Origin: Daucus carota subsp. sativus
Taxonomy: Eukaryota; Streptophyta; Magnoliopsida; Apiales; Apiaceae
Direction: 5' to 3'
Length of the DNA stretch: 64,000 nucleotides
Assembly (NCBI RefSeq): GCF_001625215.2
Contig: NC_030383.2
Coordinates: 56,782,949-56,846,948 of the forward strand
Shown here one piece after another: positions 40,924 through 54,400 of the stretch. Both the position numbers and the translations under genes were made by a program. How positions within the stretch are numbered: the stretch's first letter is position 1; each line of letters begins with the position of its first letter. The notes beneath the pieces were generated by a model. That model had not been told where the DNA came from. It did not search any database and saw only the letters and a program-made list of their open reading frames with translations.

Positions 40924-42895
40924 TTACATAAGAGATAAGCTGCACGATAGACAGAAAATGGTTTTACAAGGTGCACATCGGAGGACAGGCTCAGCTAGTT
41001 GTTCTTTGCCACATCTTTCACATCTCTGAAATCTTTTGTTGAAATCAAAGGTTAGGCTGTGAGGATGGAGTTTGTAGCTAAGTATGTCCTTAGCCCCAAA
41101 CTTGACATCCGAGTAGTGGCGATTACATAATTTTTTTAAACATTTAGGATGAAATGAAAGATCACAAATGCTGCAATGATAGAACCACCAGTTTGTGTCT
41201 ATTTCATTGGAGCAATACTCGCAACTGAACTCATGCTCATGATCTTCTCTCACCATGCCAACTTCGTATATTAAGCGGAGAGGGTGAGAATCCCACCTAT
41301 GATTTACTGTGCTGGCGTTCATTATACATCCATCACATATATAGAATTGACAATGTCTACACCTGTGCAGATATCCACGCTTATCATCTCCACATGCCTT
41401 GCATTGCCATTTATCAATTGTCGCATAAATTTGTCCAAGGGGGTGAATGTGAGTTTCGTGTTTGATCGTTACAGGCAACACCGCACATCTAATATGAAGT
41501 TTGGTATGCTCATGATCGGTGAAAAATATACAATTACCCGCGTCTTCACAAGCAGAACAAAAGAATAAGTTGTATGGTTCAATGCACCTTTCTGCATATA
41601 GCTTCATCCCGACCTTACGAATTTCCCTAAATTCTTTCGGCAACAGGGCACAGAATTTATGCAGAAAGATGTTACAAGGGACACAACCATAGGCCTGATC
41701 GCGATCTGTTTGGACGGGCTTAGCACATCCATCGCATAACAATAGTATATCATCATTAGCACCGTCTTTCAGATCATTTAACTCATTGGTTGTAATGAGT
41801 TTTAGATGGTGCTGAGCATGATACCAATGTTCAATAGAGCTCCGGATGATATTATCTTTGTAGAATTTAGTGTATTTAGTACTCATATCCGTGACAAATT
41901 GCTGAAGTAATAGATTTACCGATGATTCGTCAGCTGCAGGGAGGTGCACCAAATTGGGATATTTATTATGCTCCCAAGAGCTGAGTTTAACAGTACTACA
42001 AAACACGGAAAATTAGTGTTAGTATAAAGAAGAAAAAATAGTAGACACAAAAATGCTGCAAAAAAAAAGTGTTTAAAGTAAGTACCGCTTTGATAATTGA
42101 CTATAACTTGATCTAGTGCATTGAAAATGCACGAAAAATCTGCATTTTGGACAATAATAAAGCCAATTTGATCGGCTCATTGTTTGATCGCAGACTTTGC
42201 AATACTGAGTAAATTTGTGATAGGCTTCTGGAAGAGAAAACGCGAGGACAAGAGGGTGATCTTGGTGGAAGTGGAACTGGAAAGATGTAGGAGCATCCCC
42301 GCAGCTCTTGTGAATCCAAAACTGACATTTGCTGCATTTATACGACATGTCTTGAAAATCCTTCTTCACTCTGCAAGCGTCACATTTGAATGAGGAGGGA
42401 CGCTGGATTAAGGCCATCGGGTGCTGACTATGAGCCGCGTGCTCAAACTTGTGATCCTCCAAAGAATGCACTCTCAAGACGGCACATCTGAGGCAAATAC
42501 GGAACTCAAATTCCAAACTGCGCGCAATAATTCCAAGGCATCTCATCGTAACATATGTTGCAGTAACAATGTGTGCATGCTTCCTTGATTGCTTGTTGCG
42601 AAAATAGGACAAGGACTTGATTCGGGTTGGTCGGGTTTTCGATCTTTTGGGGTAATTCTGCACAGGTCTTGTGGAATAAGAACCTGATGCAATCTTCATC
42701 AGCACCAGTAGTATTTTGTCGGTAAAAATAAAGATCCGAACCCCAGGTTTCAAAAGCAGTGATGCGGTTGGTGCAAGTATAAATGAATGATTTACATGAG
42801 ATTATATCTTCGAGGCAGCCATTACACTTATCACCCTCCCCTGCAATGTAATTCTCATTCAGGATTAGTGAGTGTTGGTGGCCAAAGTGCTTCAT
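40924..42895 (-). pseudogene. DC1 (Cys/His-rich C1) domain protein, broken by a one-base frameshift
   Basis: Two exons in coding order, 42895-42086 and 41995-40924, with a GT-AG intron that keeps frame (SKR then TVKLSS). DC1 proteins carry repeated zinc-binding Cys/His modules; plant members are linked to hormone and stress responses. Modules are visible as HX(n)CX2C patterns, for example CKVCDQTMSRSNWLYYCPKC in exon 1 and CEYCSNEIDTNWWFYHC in exon 2. The reading frame from ATG 42895 stops at 42506. The downstream frame resumes at once with FEFRICLRCAVLRV, exactly where a DC1 module should continue. The break lies in a run of three A on the plus strand (42508-42510); with two, the module would be continuous. 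This may be a real lesion or a sequence error. If error, the gene would encode about 626 residues. Confidence 0.8.
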
Positions 42896-43382
42896 TTCTG
42901 TATCTTTTTCTTGGTCTCAGTTGTTGTAAACTGAGGGGAATTATATGTACAAAATCTATAGGTGCTTGTCACCAAAGGTAGAAATATAGCAAGACAAGCA
43001 AAGAATTAGAAAAGACACAGACTTGGGACATACTCCACAAGTACTTTGGAATGTGGTACCTTGAGTACAGATGTGTTTTACTGTATCTTCTTCTAAAAAT
43101 CGGCGATTAATCATAATTTTTCGGTTAATCTTTGCTTCTTAACTCGTCAAACCGATTAAATGTTCGATTATTTAATTTTTTTTTTGAAAGGCCAAAGATT
43201 ACATTGATAAAAGGGTTACAAGATTTTCTGCCAGTACCATAATATAACTAGAGACTAGAATCTAGAGACCCTACAAAGATAGCAATCATATCAGCTAAAT
43301 TTGCATGCTTTACTCTATCCCATAAGACCTTGGAAATTACCTAATAACTAGACACAATCTAATCTCCACTGACAAAAGCTAG

Positions 43383-43443
43383 AACATTCCCCATGCAAAC
43401 TACACGACTCCCCCCATACAAACTACACGAATCCCCCCATGCA
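43383..43443. repeat. Short tandem repeat after the third LINE ORF
   Basis: A unit of about 24 bp containing 'catgcaaactacacga' and 'tcccccca' occurs two and a half times with small changes, directly downstream (in element sense) of the RNase H-like ORF. Confidence 0.7.
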
Positions 43444-43444
43444 G

Positions 43445-44134
43445 TTAGTCAAGAATCTCTATCACTTCAACCATTTCCTCCCCAGCGAGCATCTGGGCAC
43501 CATCGTCGACCTCAGGGACAACTTGCTCATCGTCGTCCACCACAGCAGGTACAATATCTTCTTCATGAACTGCCATAAACAGGGGGTCAGCAGGGCCCAA
43601 CCCCATATCCCGATTCCAGAGTTCGAACACCTGCCCAAAGGGCTGCGCCATGATAACCATTTGTTTGTAGTGCTCAGCTCCATGATGAGCAAGATAAATA
43701 GCTAGCTCATTGGCATTAGTCTCACAGAGCCTTACTTCCATGTGGAAGTTCCTGTCTGCATTTCTTTGGTTCAACTGCTGAACTATTTCAGCGTGATCTG
43801 GATGAACCCCTTCGAGAGAGGAGTTCCTCCATTCCCAGAAGGAGTCCACATGGTTACTTTCCAGCACAAAATGCTCCATTTTCTCTACATACGCTCGTTT
43901 GCACCCCTCTAGCATGGCCTGATACTCATTGATCCTGGGGTTAGTGATCCCCAACGAGCCTGACAGCATACGGATGATTTTGCCACGACAGTTTCTGATG
44001 ACCACACCAATGCCTGAAACATTACCATTTGGCAAAGCATTGACGAAAAAACAGCCGTACACGTTAATTTTGACAAATCCAGGTCTAGGCATAATCCACC
44101 TGGGGTTAGCATCGACATTTTCGACCTCAGCCAT
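43445..44134 (-). CDS. RNase H-like (RVT_3 fold) protein, third ORF within the LINE
   Basis: An intact frame of 229 residues starting MAEVENVDANPRW in a good context (CACCCATGG). Residues about 20-150 have the layout of plant RNase H-like domains: FVKINVYGC for strand 1, then GIGVVIRNCRGKIIRM, NEYQAMLEGCK and a VLESNH segment. The catalytic Asp expected in strand 1 is Tyr (NVYGC) and the one expected in strand 4 is Asn (ESNH), so nuclease activity is unlikely. The C-terminus is acidic (EEDIVPAVVDDDEQ). It lies in the same orientation as the LINE ORFs, between the ORF2 stop and the poly(A) tail, and has its own TATA-like sequence upstream. It may be a captured host gene or a family-specific ORF; function unknown. 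Confidence 0.65.
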   Translation of the reverse strand: MAEVENVDANPRWIMPRPGFVKINVYGCFFVNALPNGNVSGIGVVIRNCRGKIIRMLSGSLGITNPRINEYQAMLEGCKRAYVEKMEHFVLESNHVDSFWEWRNSSLEGVHPDHAEIVQQLNQRNADRNFHMEVRLCETNANELAIYLAHHGAEHYKQMVIMAQPFGQVFELWNRDMGLGPADPLFMAVHEEDIVPAVVDDDEQVVPEVDDGAQMLAGEEMVEVIEILD

Positions 44135-44236
44135 GGGTGAGGAAAGAAGCAAGGAGAAGAGGGGGAGAAAGTACAGAGGTATTTGGTAGAGGAAAAAAGC
44201 AAGAGATGTGAATGAACACATCTCTCAACTGGTCTG

Positions 44237-44244
44237 TATAAATA
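44237..44244 (-). promoter_or_regulatory. TATA-like box upstream of the third LINE ORF
   Basis: TATTTATA on the minus strand (TATAAATA on the plus strand), about 100 bp before ATG 44134 and followed by a CT-rich leader without upstream ATGs near the start. It could serve as a promoter for the third ORF; use is inferred. Confidence 0.4.
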
Positions 44245-44414
44245 GCCACTGAGGAAGTGTGTTGGAAATCCAAGAAGCACGCCTGGGCGGACAAATACTA
44301 TCAGGCTTGAAGCAGGATTGGGTGAGGCGTAGAGGCTCTGCAGATGATTCTAGAAATAATCATTACTCTAGAAATTTATGTACAAGTTTTAAATCCCTCC
44401 CATATTTGAATATA

Positions 44415-47400
44415 TTAGGAGAAAGCCCAAGATAAAGATATATCCAGCTTATGGGCCCCAGATTTAGCCAATAAGTCTGCCACGTTGTTGAGCTCTCTAG
44501 GAATTAATTTTACATATATTTGTCTCGAGGCTAATTGCATGGCCAGCTCGGTATCACCTTCTCCCCCTGCATGAGAATATAACTCCAAGAACCTGTTAAT
44601 AAGTGACTTGCAGTCCACATACACCAGTAGTGATTTGTCTGCCCAAACTGACTGTGCAAAATTTTTTATCAAAAAACATAATGCACTCCATTCCGCTTCC
44701 AATGGAGAATTAGCATTGCAAGGCCCTGAAAAAGTAAAAATGGCATTTCCATTTTGTTTTTGAATGAACCCTCCTATACCAGCTTTACTTTGCCCATTCC
44801 TAGACTTCAACGATCCATCAATGAAGCCTATTAATTCTGATTGAACTTGGAGCAGAGACTGTCTTTGTAGTGACTCTGAGTTGGTGACTGTACCCATTGG
44901 ATTTGAGTACCACCACCGAGAGGACTCTTTAACTAATAAGTCTGATGCTAAGCACCAGTCTAATGACTGTTGTTTCACCAGTGCTAGCATTTCTCCAACA
45001 CTTTGGTTCTTGCCTCTGAATATTACTGCATTTCTTGAGAGCCAAATGATCCACAAAGTGGCACATAAGACTATTTTCCATACCATCCTTGCCTTTTTGT
45101 TTGTGAACATCTTTGCAGAATTCCATAGCGCCTCCAAGGAGTTGAGATGCAAATAGTCAGGATGAATTTGCCACCAAAAGCATACAAGATTCCACATACA
45201 CATAGCCCGAGGACATCCTTGAAAGAGATGAAACTCTGTTTCTTCAGAATAACCAAAAAGCTACACGCATTGTTTTCATTTGTGTGAACCCCTCTCTTAG
45301 ACAGAAGATCCCTGGTGGGAAGGACATTTAGATGAAGTTTCCACAGGAAGAGCTTGATCTTATTAGGAACCTTCATCTTCCAAATAAATTCCCATTGAAT
45401 TCTCTCTTCAGAATAAGTAAGTTCTTGTGTGGCTTTTTTAGCAGAGTACTCAGCCCTCGCAGCCTTCCATATGAGTCTGTCCTCTTTGTTTGATAATGAC
45501 ACATCCTTCACTATTATTGCTAGCTTGTCTAAATCCTCTAGTTCCTAGGCCCTAAGAGCCCTTCTCCAGATGTTGTCTTTAGCAGAGCTTGATGCAAACC
45601 AACTCTGAATAAAGGAGCTTACAGTGTGTTCTTTGAGCTTGGATAGGCTGTACAACCTGTTAAATTTCTCCATTAGTGGGCTGTCCTCAAACCAGCAATC
45701 CACCCAAAACAGTATCTTGTTACCATTGCCCAAGACCCATGTGAAATTCTTATGTTTAACAGTCTGTTTGAATAGAGAATGATGAGCTGTCCTGACAATT
45801 GCCTCCAGACTATCTGACATATTTTTATGGCTCAGGCCCTCACTGAGACTAACCTTGCTGGTGCAGTTGTACTTCCCTCTAATCCAGATATTCCAACTTC
45901 TGTGCCTTTCTTTTTCCCACCTGTAAGACCATTTTCCTAATAGGGATAATTTTTTTATCTTGATGGGAGTCAAACCAAGACCACCCTGATATCTTGGTTT
46001 GCATACTTTAGCCCAGTTAACTAAATGTAACTTCTTCTGTGTCCCTTCTTTGCCTTCCATCTGCCCCCACAGAAAATCTCTCCTGATCTTCTCCAATTTG
46101 TTGCATATAGATGAGGGAATAGAGTGTAAACTCATCCAATATACTGGCAAGCTGTCCAGTACCGATTTAACAAGCACTGATCTTCCTGCTTGATTAAGAT
46201 AGTCAGCCTTCCAACCTGCCAATTTTTGACTAAACCTCCTAATTAATGGATCCCAGAATACCTTCCTTTTACATGAGACTCCTATAGGAATTCCTAGGTA
46301 CTTCATTGGCCACACGCCAAGTTTGCATTTGAGGATCTGAGCACCCTCATATTGGTTAGTATGGCAGCACTTATGTGCAAAAATTTCACTCTTGTCAAAA
46401 TTTATCTTGAGCCCCGAGATTAACTGGAAGCATTGCAGGACAGTTTTCACACCCTTTACAGATGTTACAGAATCTTCCACGAAGATTATCGTGTCATCCG
46501 CGAATTGTAAGTGTGTAATTGGAGGAGATGATTTATCCAGCGTAATCCCTCTAAAGATTCCTTTATTTGCTGCTTCGTTTAACATTGAGCTAAGCACTTC
46601 TGCAACCAGATTAAAGAGCAGAGGGGATAGGGGGTCTCCTTGCCGCAACCCTCTACTCGGAGAAAATTCTTTCGTGGGTGATCCGTTAACTAGGATAGAT
46701 ATTCTTGAAGTACTCAGCAAGGATTTAATCCAGTCTAGCCATTTAGTATTAAAATTCATTTTCTCCAAGACTGAAAACAGGAACTCCCACTTGATAGTAT
46801 CAAAAGCTTTTTCAAAATCAAGCTTGATCACCATCCCCTTACACTTGTTCTTCTGGAGAGAGTGAACTAACTCCTTGACCACCAAGATACCCTCAGAAGC
46901 TTGTCTTCCCTTAGTAAACCCCGATTGAGTGTCACTGGTCAAATAACCCATATGAGCGGCAAGCCTACTTGCTAGGACTTTTGTGAGGACTTTGATTGAG
47001 GTATTAACAAGGCTGATGGGTCTATAATCCCTAACTGTTGATGGATCTGCGTTTTTAGGAATCAATGTCACAAAGGAGGAATTTAGGCCAGCTGGAATTG
47101 CAGCAGTGTCATGGAATGCAAATATGAAGTTCTCCATCTTGGAGCTGATAAAAGGCCACAAAAATTTTAGACTACGAACGTTAAGGCCGTCTGGCCCAGG
47201 TGCTTTGTCATCCCCCATGGAACCCAGCGCAGCTATCATTTCTTGTTTGTGAATGGGTCTAACCAAATCCTGGCTATCTTTGTCCGACAACCTTGGTAGC
47301 GTTAGGAGACCCAAATCTAACAGACTATCTCCCCTACTCCTAAAGAACTCTGAATAATGCTCAAAGAAGGCTTGCTTGATCAATTCGTGCTCGGTTACCC

Positions 47401-48529
47401 ATTTGCCGCCCCAATACAATTTGGTTATTGTATTCCTGCTTTTCCGCCTTTGTACCGCTTGATGAAAGAACTTTGTATTACCATCCCCCAGCTTCAGCCA
47501 ATTTATTCTTGCCTTTTGGCTCAACATAGATTCCTTGTGATCGTATAGAGTTTTTAACCTCCTCCTAATCTCTAGGAGCTCTATCTCTGGGCTATCATCT
47601 AGTATGTCCTGCTTAAACTCTAACTGCTGTATTTCCTCATCAATTTTCTCCTTGGCTCCTTTAGAACTCCGCTTAATAGTAACTTTAATATCCCTCAGAG
47701 CTTGCTGAATGTTGGCATTTTCCCAACCCTTTTTGCTTTTGGATAGACTCTTCACCTCTTCTAGGAGACTATCAGTTAGGAAGCAATTAAATATCTTGAA
47801 AGGTTTGGGGCTTACATCCCTTGTCCCTGATGATACCAAGAGCGGTTTATGATCCGAATGCTTCCTACCTAGAGCCACCACCTGCCACCTTGCCACCTGG
47901 AACCAATCTGCGTTAACTAGAACTCTGTCCAACTTGCTCTTTTTCCCCTCAGGGCCAAACCAGGTGTAGCTGGCATTCTCAAAACTAATATCTATCAGGT
48001 TACAATCAGAAATGAAATCATTGAAATCTGTTGTGTCTATACTTCTGTACACACATCCCCATCTCTCATTAGCTGAGCGCACACAGTTGAAATCCCCCAT
48101 GAAAGCCACAGGTTCGTTTTGCGACAGGCTTAAGATAACTCTCATTTCTTGCCAGAGCTCTTTTTTCATTGACGATGAGAGCGGACTATATATATTAATA
48201 ACATGGAACCTCCCCCCATTTCCTCCAATAATCCTAAAAGTCGTCCATACCCAGTGTCTAGCTTGAGCTATCGCTAAACATTTCACACTATTTAAGTACC
48301 AAAAGGTTGCTACCCCTCCTGATAAACCGACTGAAGGCTGAGCAGCCATACCATAAAAAACCTGGCTTAAGGGGGGCCTATTTTCCAACACTAATTTGTC
48401 TTCACATTTCGTCTCCTGCAAACAAACAATGTCCACCTTATTTGTTCTAACCAAGTCCTGCAGATTCCTCCTGGCCACACTATTATTCATACCCCTAATA
48501 TTCCATGAAAATAACTTTAAACTGATCAT
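44415..48529 (-). pseudogene. LINE ORF2: endonuclease, reverse transcriptase, zinc finger, RNase H; two lesions
   Basis: From ATG 48529 (MISLKLFSWNIRGMNN) the frame stays open for 994 codons to TAG at 45545-45547. It contains an apurinic-type endonuclease (WNIRGMNN, QETK, GDFN, SDHKP), the linker NWLKLGDGNTKFFH and a non-LTR reverse transcriptase with YRPISLVN and the catalytic FADD. The same frame resumes after the TAG with the zf-RVT linker region, then shifts at an A5 run on the plus strand (45255-45259). Beyond it the frame reads the knuckle (CPRAMCMW) and an RNase H with GFIDGS, LEAEWSAL, VYVDCKSL and NNVADLLAKSG, all catalytic acids present. The product would be one polyprotein in an active copy. 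About 58 bp separate it from ORF1. Confidence 0.88.
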
Positions 48530-48587
48530 CTGAAAGCATCTCAACTACAACAAAACTATCTCTCTAAACTAGATTAGCCAAGAAACT

Positions 48588-50618
48588 TCATAGTACACCA
48601 GTTTCTAACTGTTTGGCTATTTCCATGATTACCTTCTCTCTGTCACCCTTAATGACTAAACCCATATTTTCCGCACTACTAATGATTTCTAAAGCTTCCT
48701 GCACCGTCTTGCCCGTTAAGCCTAAAGGGACTATATGCAAACAATTCTCAGCATTCTGCTTGCCCCTTGGTCTAACACAGCTTCTGCCACCTCCCCCCTT
48801 TTTCCTTTTGTTTTTAAACTTGATGCCTATTTCAAAGGGGTTGCGAATTACACTGGTAATTTTTTTTGGCCTCCCCCTGTTACTTTTGACTTTGAGCTTC
48901 TTGCAAACATCTGTACACAGATCTGTCTGCAAACTCAATATCTTTTCTGGGGCGCATATCTCCGATTTAGATGATGCATCTATCATCTGAGTGGCATCCG
49001 AGCTGATGTCTGAGCTAGACTGAATATTCCTAAATTTATCCTTAGAGTTCTGTTTACTCGCGGAATGATTAGAATGCAAAGAAGTCTTAACACTCCTAGC
49101 TTCTGAACTGTCATTTTGATAGACTTCTTTAGCTTGGTCCTGAAGGTCGTTCCTCTGCTCATGCTCATTCTGCTGCTGCTCACCTCCAACTTGAATTCTC
49201 ACCTCTTCCTTGACACTAGTGTCCTTATTTCCATTACATCTCGAAATTTCCCCCTCCTCTTCCTTCAAAGGGCTACTTGAGAATTCCATGGGGAGAACTT
49301 TCCCTACCAGATAATCCCTATCTGTGACTTCCCTCAAGACTATGTTTTTATTTATCCCTTTATATAAGATCTTCATCTCATCATAGATTGGTTTCATCCA
49401 AGAGGTATCCACACAGACTAGGGGGTTGAAGAATTCACTAAGATCATCACCCTGATAGGACCAGCTGATCCACTCTCCAAATCTACTTGTTAATGCCTTT
49501 AGATTCTCCTCTTTCCAGGCAGGCATTGGGAGCCCTATGCATTCTAGCCACACCGCTTTCGAAATAACATGATCATTTTGATTGTAATCCCGGATTTTAC
49601 AGAACCAAACAGAAAGGTCTGTGTTGATAAGCTCATCCCAACTGTCTTTGCTATCCTTTCTGATTAAAAATTTCCTTCCAGATAGAGATGTAACTCTGTA
49701 TTGCTCCAAACCAATATCATTTAGTTTACTTTGAAGGTCTTTAGCATTTTCTTCAAACCATAGGTAGCCTATTTTGCAATCCATCAGTGCCAACTCCACC
49801 TCTTCATCCACTTCAATTTCCGTAAACTCAAAAAGTTTCTTCCCAAAATCCACTTTTTCCTCTTCCTCTTTATCCTTACCCACCTTGTCCATCTTGGCCC
49901 TAACTTCACTATTGTCTAATTTTCTTGCCCCATTTCCTAAGTTAGTACCCAGCTTCTCTTCCTTTTTCCCATTAATGGTCATTCGAATTCTACTCCCCAA
50001 CTTTTTGTCCATCTTGGCGTTATTTATAATAGCTCCAGCCTCTAGTTCACTGCAAGTGTGGACAAAACCGAATCTTTTCCCAGAAATATCCCTCTTCTTG
50101 GGCAAGATAACATCTAGCACTTTACCACATGATTTAAACAATTCCCACATTTGTCTACCCGTTGTATCCTCTGGAATGTTGTGTAGGAAAATGGTGGTGA
50201 CAGAATCCCTTTTGTTTTTGTCTGGAAGAACCGATCGCCTTTTCTTGTAAGATACAGTATGCCATTCCTCTTCCTCTTTTCTTGGATGGAAAGCTGCATC
50301 CATCACCATTCTAGCTTCACCATGATCCTCCATCAGTGTAGATCTATACGTTTTCCGATCCTCCTTAGCCTTCTCCATTAGGCTTCTAGAATGTATTTGA
50401 TCCAAGGCCTCTTGTATCACACTCTCATCACCGATATTAAGCTTTTCTAAGATATCTTTCTCTACCCAATAGTTATGTGCCCATATGAAGTTTTTAACTA
50501 GCTTGGCCTCATCTAGTTTCATCTTTCTGAATCTGCCATGGTTCCTCTCACGAGCCGTTGGGAAGTTCAAATTTTGAAAATCGCCCCTGAAGTCGCCCCG
50601 GAAATCGCCTCTCTCCAT
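48588..50618 (-). CDS. LINE ORF1 RNA-binding protein
   Basis: An intact frame of 676 residues. An RRM lies at about 141-220, with RNP2-like TIFLHNIPE (142-150) and RNP1-like KRFGFVHT (181-188). It is followed by a charged linker and a region resembling the DUF4283-type domain of plant L1 ORF1 proteins (VWLECIGLPMPAWKEENL). The C-terminal third is Ser/Lys-rich with basic patches. The N-terminus begins with three RGDF-type repeats. In L1 elements ORF1 binds the element RNA and acts as a chaperone. Its intactness, against the broken ORF2, suggests the element is not very old. Confidence 0.85.
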   Translation of the reverse strand: MERGDFRGDFRGDFQNLNFPTARERNHGRFRKMKLDEAKLVKNFIWAHNYWVEKDILEKLNIGDESVIQEALDQIHSRSLMEKAKEDRKTYRSTLMEDHGEARMVMDAAFHPRKEEEEWHTVSYKKRRSVLPDKNKRDSVTTIFLHNIPEDTTGRQMWELFKSCGKVLDVILPKKRDISGKRFGFVHTCSELEAGAIINNAKMDKKLGSRIRMTINGKKEEKLGTNLGNGARKLDNSEVRAKMDKVGKDKEEEEKVDFGKKLFEFTEIEVDEEVELALMDCKIGYLWFEENAKDLQSKLNDIGLEQYRVTSLSGRKFLIRKDSKDSWDELINTDLSVWFCKIRDYNQNDHVISKAVWLECIGLPMPAWKEENLKALTSRFGEWISWSYQGDDLSEFFNPLVCVDTSWMKPIYDEMKILYKGINKNIVLREVTDRDYLVGKVLPMEFSSSPLKEEEGEISRCNGNKDTSVKEEVRIQVGGEQQQNEHEQRNDLQDQAKEVYQNDSSEARSVKTSLHSNHSASKQNSKDKFRNIQSSSDISSDATQMIDASSKSEICAPEKILSLQTDLCTDVCKKLKVKSNRGRPKKITSVIRNPFEIGIKFKNKRKKGGGGRSCVRPRGKQNAENCLHIVPLGLTGKTVQEALEIISSAENMGLVIKGDREKVIMEIAKQLETGVL

Positions 50619-50668
50619 CGTGTTGGTTTTTCTTAATTATTATTAACCACCATGTTCGATTATTTAAT

Positions 50669-51241
50669 TAATCATCTGATTAATCTTCAATCAATTCAAT
50701 TAATTTTTTATTAATTTTTATTTCATGTCTTCACCGATCCAAGTTCGTACCATTTTTCACGACACTAGTTCACGCAAGAAGATTCTTGCAACTTTTACAA
50801 ATTAATTTTAATTAATTTTAATAGATTTTAGATAACCCGTTTTAATTGTATCTTGACCAAGCACTCTAATTTCATCATTAGTTCAATCCCACTACACTCC
50901 AGCAGAACTAATAATTTTACGCACTTTTGTTGTAACATTTCTGTTTGGAATCGATATTGTTTCAATCCTTTCATTTAATTAAATGAAGTTTATTGTTATG
51001 TAAAAAATAATTATTCACTCATTTTTATGTGAGAGTTACTTATCAAAATAAGTGATTCTCGAGACATCAGTTTATTGATGTACTAGTCTATTGTACTTTT
51101 ATCAAGTGATAGGTGTTTATTGGCGGTTAGATTACTATACCAGCCCAAGCCCAAGAAAGAACTGGACTAGTATCCATCTATTTTTCCAGTCCACTTTTGA
51201 ACCCATTTCATCAAATCGGATCTTTCTCCCGTTCCTCTGCA
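50669..51241. other. Spacer between LINE and CWF19-like gene
   Basis: AT-rich 'attaatc' sequence continuous with the flank at 43090-43178 (the pre-insertion site), followed by the promoter and short leader of the CWF19-like gene. No separate gene is seen. Confidence 0.6.
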
Positions 51242-51449: not shown

Positions 51450-54400
51450 CACACACACACCAAAAAAAATAAAAAATTGCGCATCTTAAGTTATATTTTG
51501 TGATTATTAGTTGACTGCTGACACACACACTAGTGATGCAGTTTAATGTATGTGATATTAGGTTAACAAATCAGCTGGTCCATTCGATGCGCTTCTATGC
51601 GTTGGCCAGTTTTTTCCGGATAATTCTGACCGGCTCGAAGAGTTCATGAACTATATAGATGGACGGAGCACTTTTCCGTTGCCTATTTACTTTATCGGAG
51701 ATTACGGAGCTGGAGCTCCCAAGGTTTTGTCTGTTGCAGCAAAAGATTCCGCCAATTTAGGGTTTAAAATGGACGGTCTTAAAGTCTGCGATAATTTGTT
51801 TTGGTTGAAAGGCAGTGGCAAGTTCACTCTCCACGGTATGTGTTCGAATTATGTTTTGGTTTATTATTATGTTGACAATTTTGTCAAAAGATATATATGT
51901 ACATTGTGCTATTTGTTATGTTGTGAGTCGTGATAAACTTATTAACTCCGATACATAAGTGCATTGTGCTCCTTTTTTATATCGTAGTAATTATATTTTG
52001 TTATTTTAATATGCTAGTAATTTTGGCGAGTAGCCATATGTACATTATGTTCATTTTGGATCATGATTCGTTATGATTATTTATAATTTGGTAACTATCT
52101 TAGTATAGTAATTTTTAACGCTCCAGAGATACTAAAACAGCAGTAATATTAAAATTCTGTCAGAGTCAGGCAGTTTTAGTAATTGTATTTTGTTATTTTA
52201 TTATGCTATTTATTTTGGCGAGTAGCCATATGTACATTATGTTCATTTTGGATCATGATTCGTTATGATTATTTATAATTTGGTAACTATCTTAGTATAA
52301 TAATTTGTAATGCTCCAGAGATACTAAAACTGCAGTAATATTAAAATTCTGTCAGAGTCAGGCAGTCAGCTAAAAGCAGAAGTATAGAAATCGTATAATA
52401 TCTTGGTTAGGTGTGGAATAATGAATTTGACATAAAGTTAATGGTGATATAATTTGTATGGAAGCCATCAGCAGATGCACTAGGATAAATGATGCTGCAA
52501 TATGTTACTTCTGTATGTTAGTATCAGTTTCAGGTTTTAGAATTTGGATTGTTAAGAATTAAAGTGCTAATGAACGTAGAATGTCATTTTATGTTGTACC
52601 TTTGGTGTACAAGGCCTGTGTTGATATTGTTAGATTAATTTGGATTCCTTAGAGGAATCGATCAGGTACATGAAGCTTCAGTGGATGCTACACAGAAGAG
52701 AATCTTTTCTGCAAGCTTTGTTATTTGTTAGTGATGGAAGATAGAATTTTTACAAATTACAAGAAAACTTGACTTAGTTTTATCATTTTATTTAACTTAC
52801 TGTTCAACTAAATAACAAAACGATAAATCCATTAATTTTTGCCCACCAAGTGTCTATCTGTTTGTCATATTTTACTAAGGCAGTTTTCATAGTACGTGGT
52901 ACTGTAGTTGTAGTCAAGGTCTCAATCTTTGGAATTTGCAGAGGAAATTAGTCTAGGTATCTGCATCATGATTGATATATTATTTTTATATAACAGAGTG
53001 TTCCACAGTGAATTTTTGGAAACTGGAAAATCGTGTTGTCTTTTTTTTTCCCCATTCTGCCAAAGAAATTAGATTCATTACTAAATCAAATCGTTCGCCA
53101 ATACATGACTGAACTCCTGGTGAATAGCGCACACCCTCCGAGTACGATCAGCTATAGAACTACTATACCTCGCTAAGTAGTGAGCTATGTGGTTCGCAGA
53201 CCGTTTTACAAATTTAATTGTCACTCTCCTTACACTCCCGGATCAGTCTGCCAAAGTATGCAGCAAAGGGGAGTCGCTATGGATTGCCTGAACAGCAACA
53301 ATGCAATCTGTTTCGACTGTCACAGCCTCTCGGTTTTGTTCCTTGATCCAGCTTAGAACCTCCCTAATGCCAATGGTTTCTGCAATTTTTGGATTTACCT
53401 TACCCAGACAACACTTCGATCTAGCTTCTATTAGTTTCCCAGCAGAGTCACGAACCACAAAAGCATAGCTAAAGCAGTTAGAGGCTTCAAAAATCGCAGC
53501 ATCTGAATTAACCTTAATTGTATCAACCGTTGGACAGACCCAGTGCTCGTCACCATCTATTGGATTCATTAAACCCAGATAGTGGCCAGAAGTGTTGTCT
53601 TTATGTGTAACTGATATTATAATTTTTTTACTGATGTTGACCATGTTATTTATGGATGTAGCATAATTTAGGGAAGCAATCTTAGTTACAGGGAAAAACA
53701 TATTACTAGAAACTTGTGTTAAATAGATTTTATGTAATCGTGAATGCTGATCACATTTATATTTAGGACTATCTGTCGCATACCTATCTGGTAAGCAATC
53801 AGCAAGTGGGCAACCATATGGAACATATAGTCAAGATGATGTTGATGCTTTGCGGGCTTTAGCTGAAGAATCCGGAATAGTAGATATATTCTTAACATAT
53901 CCTTTCCGTTGTTTATTTATTTATAATTTATAATTCTCCGTCCCCCCTCCCTTTAAATCTTTCTTTCGACTTAGTTGATCGAGCTAATGTATTATACTTC
54001 TTGTTTCCTTAACTACATTATACTAATGAGTGGCCGAGTGGGATCCTGAATGGAGTTCCGACAACAGATATTCCTCTTGGGATTCCGGACTTATCTGATA
54101 CTGACTCCACAATCTCGGAGTTAGTTGCAGAAATAAAACCCAGGTACATGATATTAGTACGGAAATATATATATACTTTCAAATTCTTTTAACATTTAAG
54201 GTTCTATTTAATGTTATGAAGGAGTATATTTTCCCTGTTTTAGATAAATACAGACGACTATTTGTTCTTCTCTTCCATCCTGATGCCAGTCAATGATTAT
54301 GTCTTTTAGATAATATATGATAACCACTTGTTTCCTTTATATACTGGTGTGTGACAGGTATCATATTGCAGGAAGTAGAGGGGTATTTTATTCTCGAGAA

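Follow-up and report, generated by a model that had tools for sequence, protein, structure and literature searches.

A regular third open reading frame with a degenerate RNase H-like product in plant L1-type LINEs

Introduction

RRM-type ORF1 proteins are known from some plant long interspersed nuclear elements (LINEs), and Smyshlyaev et al. (2013) reportedly described an archaea-like RNase H in the second open reading frame (ORF2) of plant L1-type LINEs. Plant L1 LINEs are presented with two ORFs in the available part of a review (PMC9033089). The element analysed here is an L1-type LINE on the minus strand of a 64,000-nucleotide stretch of Daucus carota subsp. sativus DNA (contig NC_030383.2, positions 56,782,949 to 56,846,948; the whole of this stretch is called the window). 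It resembles the plant L1-type LINEs in its RRM ORF1, in an ORF2 with endonuclease, reverse transcriptase (RT), zinc finger and C-terminal RNase H, in its poly(A) end and in its target-site duplications, and it differs from them in that its family adds a third ORF (ORF3), which encodes a second, degenerate RNase H-like protein and follows a promoter-like spacer.

The nearest analogy to ORF3 is the 'tether' domain of Tat/Ty3 long terminal repeat (LTR) retrotransposons and retroviruses, which, in the accessible text of two sources, carry a dual RNase H composed of this degenerate domain and an active one (PMC10508981, PMC9040795). There, as in the LINE, a catalytic RNase H is accompanied by an RNase H-like domain that lacks the catalytic residues and is kept by selection. 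Both domains typically lie in Pol of the LTR element, whereas ORF3 is a separate 3′ gene of a non-LTR element with a poly(A) end; ORF3 is, moreover, recognised by Pfam RVT_3, and its tail and conserved C-terminal motif, DMGLG, are its own. VANC, the anti-silencing proteins of VANDAL DNA transposons according to the available part of PMC5735166, likewise come from an accessory gene inside a plant transposable element, although the transposon class and the protein family are different and a similarity of role would be conjecture. Extra sequence inside a retroelement is also found in maize Bs1 and tomato Rider, which the accessible portion of PMC13317346 gives as cases of host-gene transduction by plant retrotransposons; these are single elements or families, whereas ORF3 occurs across deeply diverged LINEs. 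Our literature searches, which included one restricted to carrot and covered titles and the beginnings of abstracts, returned no report of a third ORF or an additional RNase H in plant LINEs, and a third ORF goes unmentioned in the available parts of PMC10368883, PMC3762812 and PMC4838847. The novelty of a third LINE gene is provisional.

Results

The window LINE measures 7,474 bp between exact 18-bp repeats (Table 1) and contains an intact ORF3 of 229 codons between the ORF2 stop and the tail, with the start context CACCCATGGC. Pfam RVT_3 matches its product with an E value of 1.9e-7 (2.7e-7 when the upstream in-frame extension is included). Frame and extension together comprise 258 codons, a length reached on the same strand in 0 of 1000 single-base shuffles of the 1.24-kb stretch, in which the longest frame had 187. 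A first-pass annotation of this DNA had reported the bounding 18-bp duplication as well as an intact RNase H-like ORF in this position, and both observations are borne out. It had also read the duplication and tail as bracketing ORF1, ORF2 and ORF3 in one orientation, which is correct for the arrangement and has to be amended for ORF2, which is not intact; it had missed that ORF2 is broken, that ORF3 has lost catalytic residues and that ORF3 is old and constrained.

Relatives were sought in one plant genome of 441 Mb, represented by 11 contigs (C1-C9 chromosome-sized). The RT sample consists of the 46 best-scoring loci of 1429 candidates (48 RT protein matches), and the shares given below describe this sample. 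At 39 of the 46 loci an ORF3 lies downstream on the same strand, adjacent in 37 cases and at 11 and 15 kb in the other 2, a departure from the two-ORF description in the consulted portion of PMC9033089. These positions come from a comparison of 130 ORF3 rows with 46 RT rows, the ORF3 protein search having yielded 151 matches (150 scored of 605 candidates). RT loci of 49-100% identity (n = 31) have a same-strand ORF3 within 2 kb in 25 cases and at 11 and 15 kb in 2, while 4 have none listed. One of these four, L038, retains a 52-amino-acid fragment of ORF3; the 3.2-3.6 kb inspected at L036, L037 and L039 contain no ORF3, and at L037 no RNase H either. When the sequence downstream of the RT loci of 39-42% identity (n = 15) was read, ORF3 was present in 12 (L032-L035 and L040-L047), whereas the match list alone gave 2; the downstream sequence of L029-L031 contains none. 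No opposite-strand ORF3 was found within 25 kb of an RT locus among the 130 ORF3 rows, and by our own arithmetic about 0.0003 ORF3 matches per locus would be expected by chance in such a 2-kb interval.

A DNA search with the ORF3 region, which the first-pass annotation had proposed, returned three close relatives (98, 96 and 90% identical over its length, one of them split by an insertion) and 35 further places that match the reading frame at 65-77% identity. Nineteen of these 38 places were examined, each with about 7.5 kb of upstream sequence, and ORF2 sequence lies upstream in the same orientation at 17 of them; the remaining two, L015 and L020, have ORF3 without LINE sequence within the stretch examined. 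ORF1, ORF2 and ORF3 are all open in some copies (L025, L027 and L028). ORF3 is thus joined to LINE ORFs elsewhere in the genome, as the annotation had predicted for a family trait, the first of the two readings that it offered. That reading is strongly supported by the 39 RT loci, by the correlated distances and by the duplications that enclose ORF3 in other copies (see below), and most relatives do not end right after the ORF2 RNase H, the arrangement that the annotation had named as contrary evidence (7 of 46 RT loci lack ORF3 beyond a fragment). ORF3 is a regular and ancient third gene in a large group of plant L1-type LINEs.

Several other ORF3-like sequences were encountered in these searches. 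About 16 kb beyond the window end, L048 (G000:C3:56862957-56863616) is an ORF3 copy of 65% identity; the 2.8 kb upstream contain no LINE sequence, an A-run follows 272 nt past the match, and no duplication was found. Fourteen clustered ORF3-like matches of about 48-52% identity occupy G000:C9:28.16-29.55 Mb, and 11 of them share one set of stops (two TGA, one TAG and one TAA), as if a dead copy had been amplified locally. At G000:C5:38674634-38684195 a close copy of the window LINE is split in its ORF2-ORF3 spacer by an insertion of about 9.6 kb, whose flanks overlap by 5 bp in the query, as expected for an LTR element; the ORF2 match of this C5 copy also contains a TAG. Viral and prokaryotic contigs searched for ORF3 relatives gave 11 and 32 pattern matches, respectively, none of which was confirmed.

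ORF3 is under strong purifying selection, as judged from substitution patterns. Against the three close copies, the ratio of nonsynonymous to synonymous substitution (dN/dS) of the window ORF3 is 0.099, 0.063 and 0.097 (p against neutrality 3e-4, 3e-10 and 8e-16), while elsewhere in the element it is 0.175 for ORF1 (one pair), 0.15-0.18 for the endonuclease-RT part and 0.22-0.34 for the RNase H. The family medians of the corresponding ratio of proportions, pN/pS, are 0.25 for ORF3 (18 copies), 0.39 for RT (10), 0.46 for ORF1 (9) and 0.53 for RNase H (16). Synonymous divergence is saturated and similar across ORF3, ORF1, RT and RNase H (median pS 0.76-0.81), which makes ORF3 as old as ORF2. Among 19 elements, distances in the ORF3 tree correlate with those in the tree of the ORF2 RNase H (Mantel r 0.91, 0/2000 permutations), and they do so among the 13 elements left after close copies and distant elements are dropped (r 0.60, 0/2000). 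A recent sharing of ORF3 between families was considered and rejected on account of the like synonymous divergence of ORF3, ORF1, RT and RNase H and of these correlated distances.

The ORF3 product is predicted to adopt an RNase H-like fold. RVT_3 matches all 19 ORF3 proteins of alignment A1 (best E 8.7e-14), and hhalign finds a remote relation between the profiles of ORF3 and of the ORF2 RNase H (probability 94.9); BLASTP between the two RNase H-like proteins of the window is not significant (E 2.2), and the best match of ORF3 to a solved structure is weak (Ribonuclease H 3u3g/4h8k, E 0.011). With so remote a relation, ORF3 may be either a duplicate of the ORF2 RNase H or an acquisition from the host. 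RNase H requires the residues D, E, D and D (DEDD), as stated in the available text of PMC10508981. Among 28 ORF3 copies, near-duplicates included, the first of these positions is never Asp but His in 26, with Tyr in the window copy and Arg in L045; Glu occupies the second in 17 and Asp the third in 22, and the fourth is Asp in none. The 33 ORF2 RNase H domains, by comparison, all keep D1, E2 and D3, and 29 keep D4 (His in L035 and L043, unaligned in L014 and L017); residues D129, E171, D197 and D243 are invariant in 9 of 9 aligned sequences. ORF3 thus lacks the DEDD set of an active type 1 RNase H, and its protein is very probably non-catalytic. Conserved outside the active site are an NGN and the C-terminal DMGLG motif. 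An acidic tail of 38-68 residues, 13-19 of them acidic and at most one basic, ends the protein in 19 of the 28 copies; the end looks amphipathic in L034, L042, L044 and L046, is more basic in L045 and is cut short in L026 and L047. Two distant LINEs, L043 and L032, have ORF3 frames of 426 and 388 amino acids, in which C-terminal extensions of about 200-240 residues take the place of the acidic tail.

Clear duplications enclose the unit from ORF1 to poly(A) in 4 of 10 ORF1-bearing copies (18 bp in the window, 14 in L014, 18 in L022 and 12 in L028), and none was found in the other six, which include an ambiguous A-rich 11-mer at L023 and a copy cut by the locus edge, L016. Two of seven incomplete copies also have one: L015 (14 bp), which is ORF3 with almost nothing upstream, and L018 (15 bp), which consists of zinc finger, RNase H and ORF3. 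Both fit 5′-truncated insertions that would have kept the 3′ end, i.e. ORF3. No duplication was found in the remaining five incomplete copies, for the distant element L046/L049 or for the solo ORF3 L048. Of 28 copies, 27 have an A-run of at least 8 at a distance of 175-335 nt past the ORF3 stop. Taken together, the sequences place ORF3 inside the retrotransposed unit, co-inherited with ORF2 and deprived of essential catalytic residues.

ORF3 probably has a promoter of its own. The TATA-like box that the first-pass annotation had noted ahead of it recurs across the family: a TATA-like motif, defined as TATAWA or TATTTAW in the interval from -125 to -45 of the ORF3 ATG, is present in 17 of 22 non-redundant copies (near-duplicates L009, L010, L012, L041, L044 and L047 dropped), against an average of 2.25 and at most 7 in dinucleotide shuffles, 0 of 1000 of which reached 17. 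Control regions matched in 0 of 22 (-250 to -170) and 1 of 22 (3′ region). By eye, the spacers around the box differ among the more distant copies, and many copies have CT-rich leaders; the recurrence of the box amid such differing spacers, together with these leaders, points to a selected promoter.

The remaining features of the window copy are those of a plant L1-type LINE: an intact RRM-type ORF1, whose start codon lies 33 nt inside the 5′ edge, an APE-type endonuclease and a non-LTR RT in ORF2 with zinc finger and RNase H at its C-terminal end, and a poly(A) tail with a target-site duplication. The 3′ edge is an A-run of 10, the last two bases of which belong also to the 18-bp repeat. ORF2 is broken by a TAG (45547-45545) after the endonuclease-RT part and by a single frameshift that separates the zinc-finger frame from that of the RNase H; the latter is itself open throughout and ends in a TAA at 44417-44415. 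Zinc finger and RNase H share one frame in copies L009 and L011, where the frameshift is absent.

Table 1. Coordinates of the L1-type LINE and its parts in the window.
Feature	Position	Strand	Basis
L1-type LINE, whole insertion, three ORFs	43178..50651	-	exact 18-bp flanking repeats; EN (endonuclease), RT, zf-RVT, RVT_3 and RRM domains
Target-site duplication, 5′ side of element	50652..50669	.	same as 43160-43177
ORF1, 676 amino acids, RRM	48588..50618	-	RRM_1 E 9e-8
ORF2, endonuclease and RT part, closed by TAG	45545..48544	-	RVT_1 E 1e-40, Exo_endo_phos E 5e-15
ORF2, zinc finger (zf-RVT), in the endonuclease-RT frame, then frameshift	45071..45511	-	zf-RVT E 5.5e-9
ORF2, C-terminal RNase H, four catalytic acidic residues all present	44415..45203	-	RVT_3 E 2.9e-9
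ORF2-ORF3 spacer, 280 nt, putative ORF3 promoter and CT-rich leader	44135..44414	-	sequence
TATA-like box of ORF3, TATTTATA, about 105 nt ahead of ATG	44237..44244	-	motif read in sequence
ORF3, 229 amino acids, apparently catalytically degenerate RNase H-like protein, acidic tail	43445..44134	-	RVT_3; purifying selection
3′ untranslated region past ORF3	43186..43444	-	between ORF3 stop and tail
Poly(A) tail, T8 on the + strand (10 A's with 2 duplication bases)	43178..43185	-	A-run
Target-site duplication, 3′ side of element	43160..43177	.	same as 50652-50669

Minus-strand ORFs adjoin the 3′ end of the LINE (window 40924-42895). Of these, 42073-42753 encodes C1/DC1-type zinc-binding domains, and 40924-42006 resembles it by eye. 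A broken second RNase H-like stretch lies on the minus strand at 53099-53560, 2.4 kb from the 5′ end of the LINE, and has weak similarity to ORF3 (20.8% over 168 amino acids, E 3e-5).

Discussion

We regard ORF3 as a third gene of this LINE family, with its own promoter and with its catalysis lost, at a probability of about 0.85, a figure that leaves the function of the protein aside; that it is a family gene under selection we consider nearly certain. ORF3 would be driven by its own RNA polymerase II promoter in the ORF2-ORF3 spacer and would share the poly(A) signal of the LINE, yielding a short separate mRNA, which would account for the translation of a third ORF. Copies with 5′ truncations, if long enough, would retain the complete ORF3 gene. 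Its protein (ORF3p) may bind an RNA:DNA hybrid or structured RNA through the degenerate RNase H fold, without cutting, and may assist retrotransposition in trans as an accessory factor; it might, for instance, accompany the active ORF2 RNase H during target-primed reverse transcription as a partner that does not cut. Alternatively, it could shield the nucleic acids of the element from host silencing. The odds that ORF3p is a nucleic-acid-binding accessory factor seem to us about even, the cofactor version being favoured over the anti-silencing one.

Several points weigh against the three-gene interpretation. It is drawn from sequence throughout, and from a single plant genome, and the RNase H-like fold is predicted from profiles. 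Clear duplications were seen in only a minority of the tested copies. The seven RT loci without ORF3 beyond a fragment include one subfamily (L029-L031), so that ORF3 is dispensable at least there, and the 39 ORF3 copies include broken ones. In the tree, L029-L031 sit amid ORF3-bearing elements (weak support, 60), which suggests loss. The TATA-like motif and its interval were chosen after the spacer sequences had been viewed, 5 of the 22 copies have no match, and, the motif being nearly a palindrome, 13 of 22 also match on the opposite strand of this region. The contrast in dN/dS between ORF3 and the rest of the element is weak in single pairs (Fisher p 0.51, 0.03 and 0.1). Finally, the ORF3 and RNase H trees have only 7 of 16 groups in common. 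Most of the unshared groups are weakly supported in one or both trees; there is a supported conflict over L014/L016 (88 in the ORF3 tree, 79 and 92 in the RNase H tree), and the ORF3 tree does not recover RNase H groups supported at 98 (L018 with L027) and 93.

The second reading of the first-pass annotation was a 3′ transduction, in which read-through of the poly(A) signal of this LINE, or of a recent ancestor, carried a neighbouring host gene along. ORF3 does resemble a complete small gene, with a TATA-like box, a CT-rich leader, a good start context, a stop and poly(A), and this route of gene capture by retrotransposons is described in the accessible part of PMC13317346. Yet ORF3 is found at 39 of 46 RT loci across deeply diverged elements, including 12 of the 15 whose RT is only 39-42% identical, instead of being confined to one recent copy or a handful; its distances correlate with those of the RNase H, and its synonymous divergence is similar. 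Nor is there an internal poly(A), since no A-run exceeds 4 in the window spacer or 6 in the 200 nt ahead of ORF3 in the 28 copies. We therefore abandon this reading as extremely improbable. An ancient single capture before these LINEs diversified would be the origin of the trait and is compatible with ORF3 as a family gene. That positions 43180-44400 are instead a separate retroelement or gene, nested near the 3′ end of the LINE, might be thought from the ORF3 stretches that stand without LINE sequence in the DNA examined (L015, L020 and L048), L015 even with its 14-bp duplication. L015 is most simply a 5′-truncated LINE, however, because truncation spares the 3′ end, which is ORF3. No exact repeat of at least 8 bp joins the two edges of 43180-44400, where the annotation would have expected the duplication of a nested insertion, and the arrangement recurs in most relatives examined, 37 RT loci having ORF3 directly downstream; a nested insertion is next to impossible in our judgement.

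ORF3 might also be conserved as RNA rather than as protein. LINE RNAs are recognised by their own RT at their 3′ part, and ORF3 sits in this part of the element. Its synonymous sites are, however, as diverged as those of the other ORFs, whereas its amino-acid sites are not, and the DNA matches of the wider family (65-77%) lie within query positions 249-970, the frame occupying 266-955, with one short extra piece at 5-157; conservation for 3′-end recognition is very improbable. Less remote, although still unlikely, is the view that ORF3p is an anti-silencing or counter-defence factor, like VANC of Arabidopsis VANDAL transposons, and not a cofactor of reverse transcription. It would suit a small gene that stands apart, has its own promoter and possibly acts in trans; hybrid or double-stranded RNA could be bound by an RNase H fold that does not cut, and VANC is a precedent for such genes in plant transposable elements, as the available part of PMC5735166 describes. 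A sequence relation to VANC is not to be expected, and a protein in an arms race would less typically be as strongly constrained as ORF3.

Tentatively, and aware that so broad a statement has the odds somewhat against it, we propose that a large and old part of the plant L1 LINEs may be three-gene elements, whose third gene, under its own promoter, would encode a trans-acting dead RNase H (with His for the first Asp) that is constrained more strongly than any other protein of the element and can be expressed from long enough 5′-truncated copies, a counterpart of the tether or a counter-defence factor that has been overlooked as 3′ untranslated region or host gene. ORF3 may then account for some of the RNase H-like genes that plant annotations assign to the host, which is conjecture. 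The pairing of an active with an apparently dead RNase H-like protein would be found in a non-LTR element, beside the LTR elements and retroviruses with a tether. If true, a third gene that is selected, co-inherited and separately transcribed would alter the description of the plant L1 LINE life cycle.

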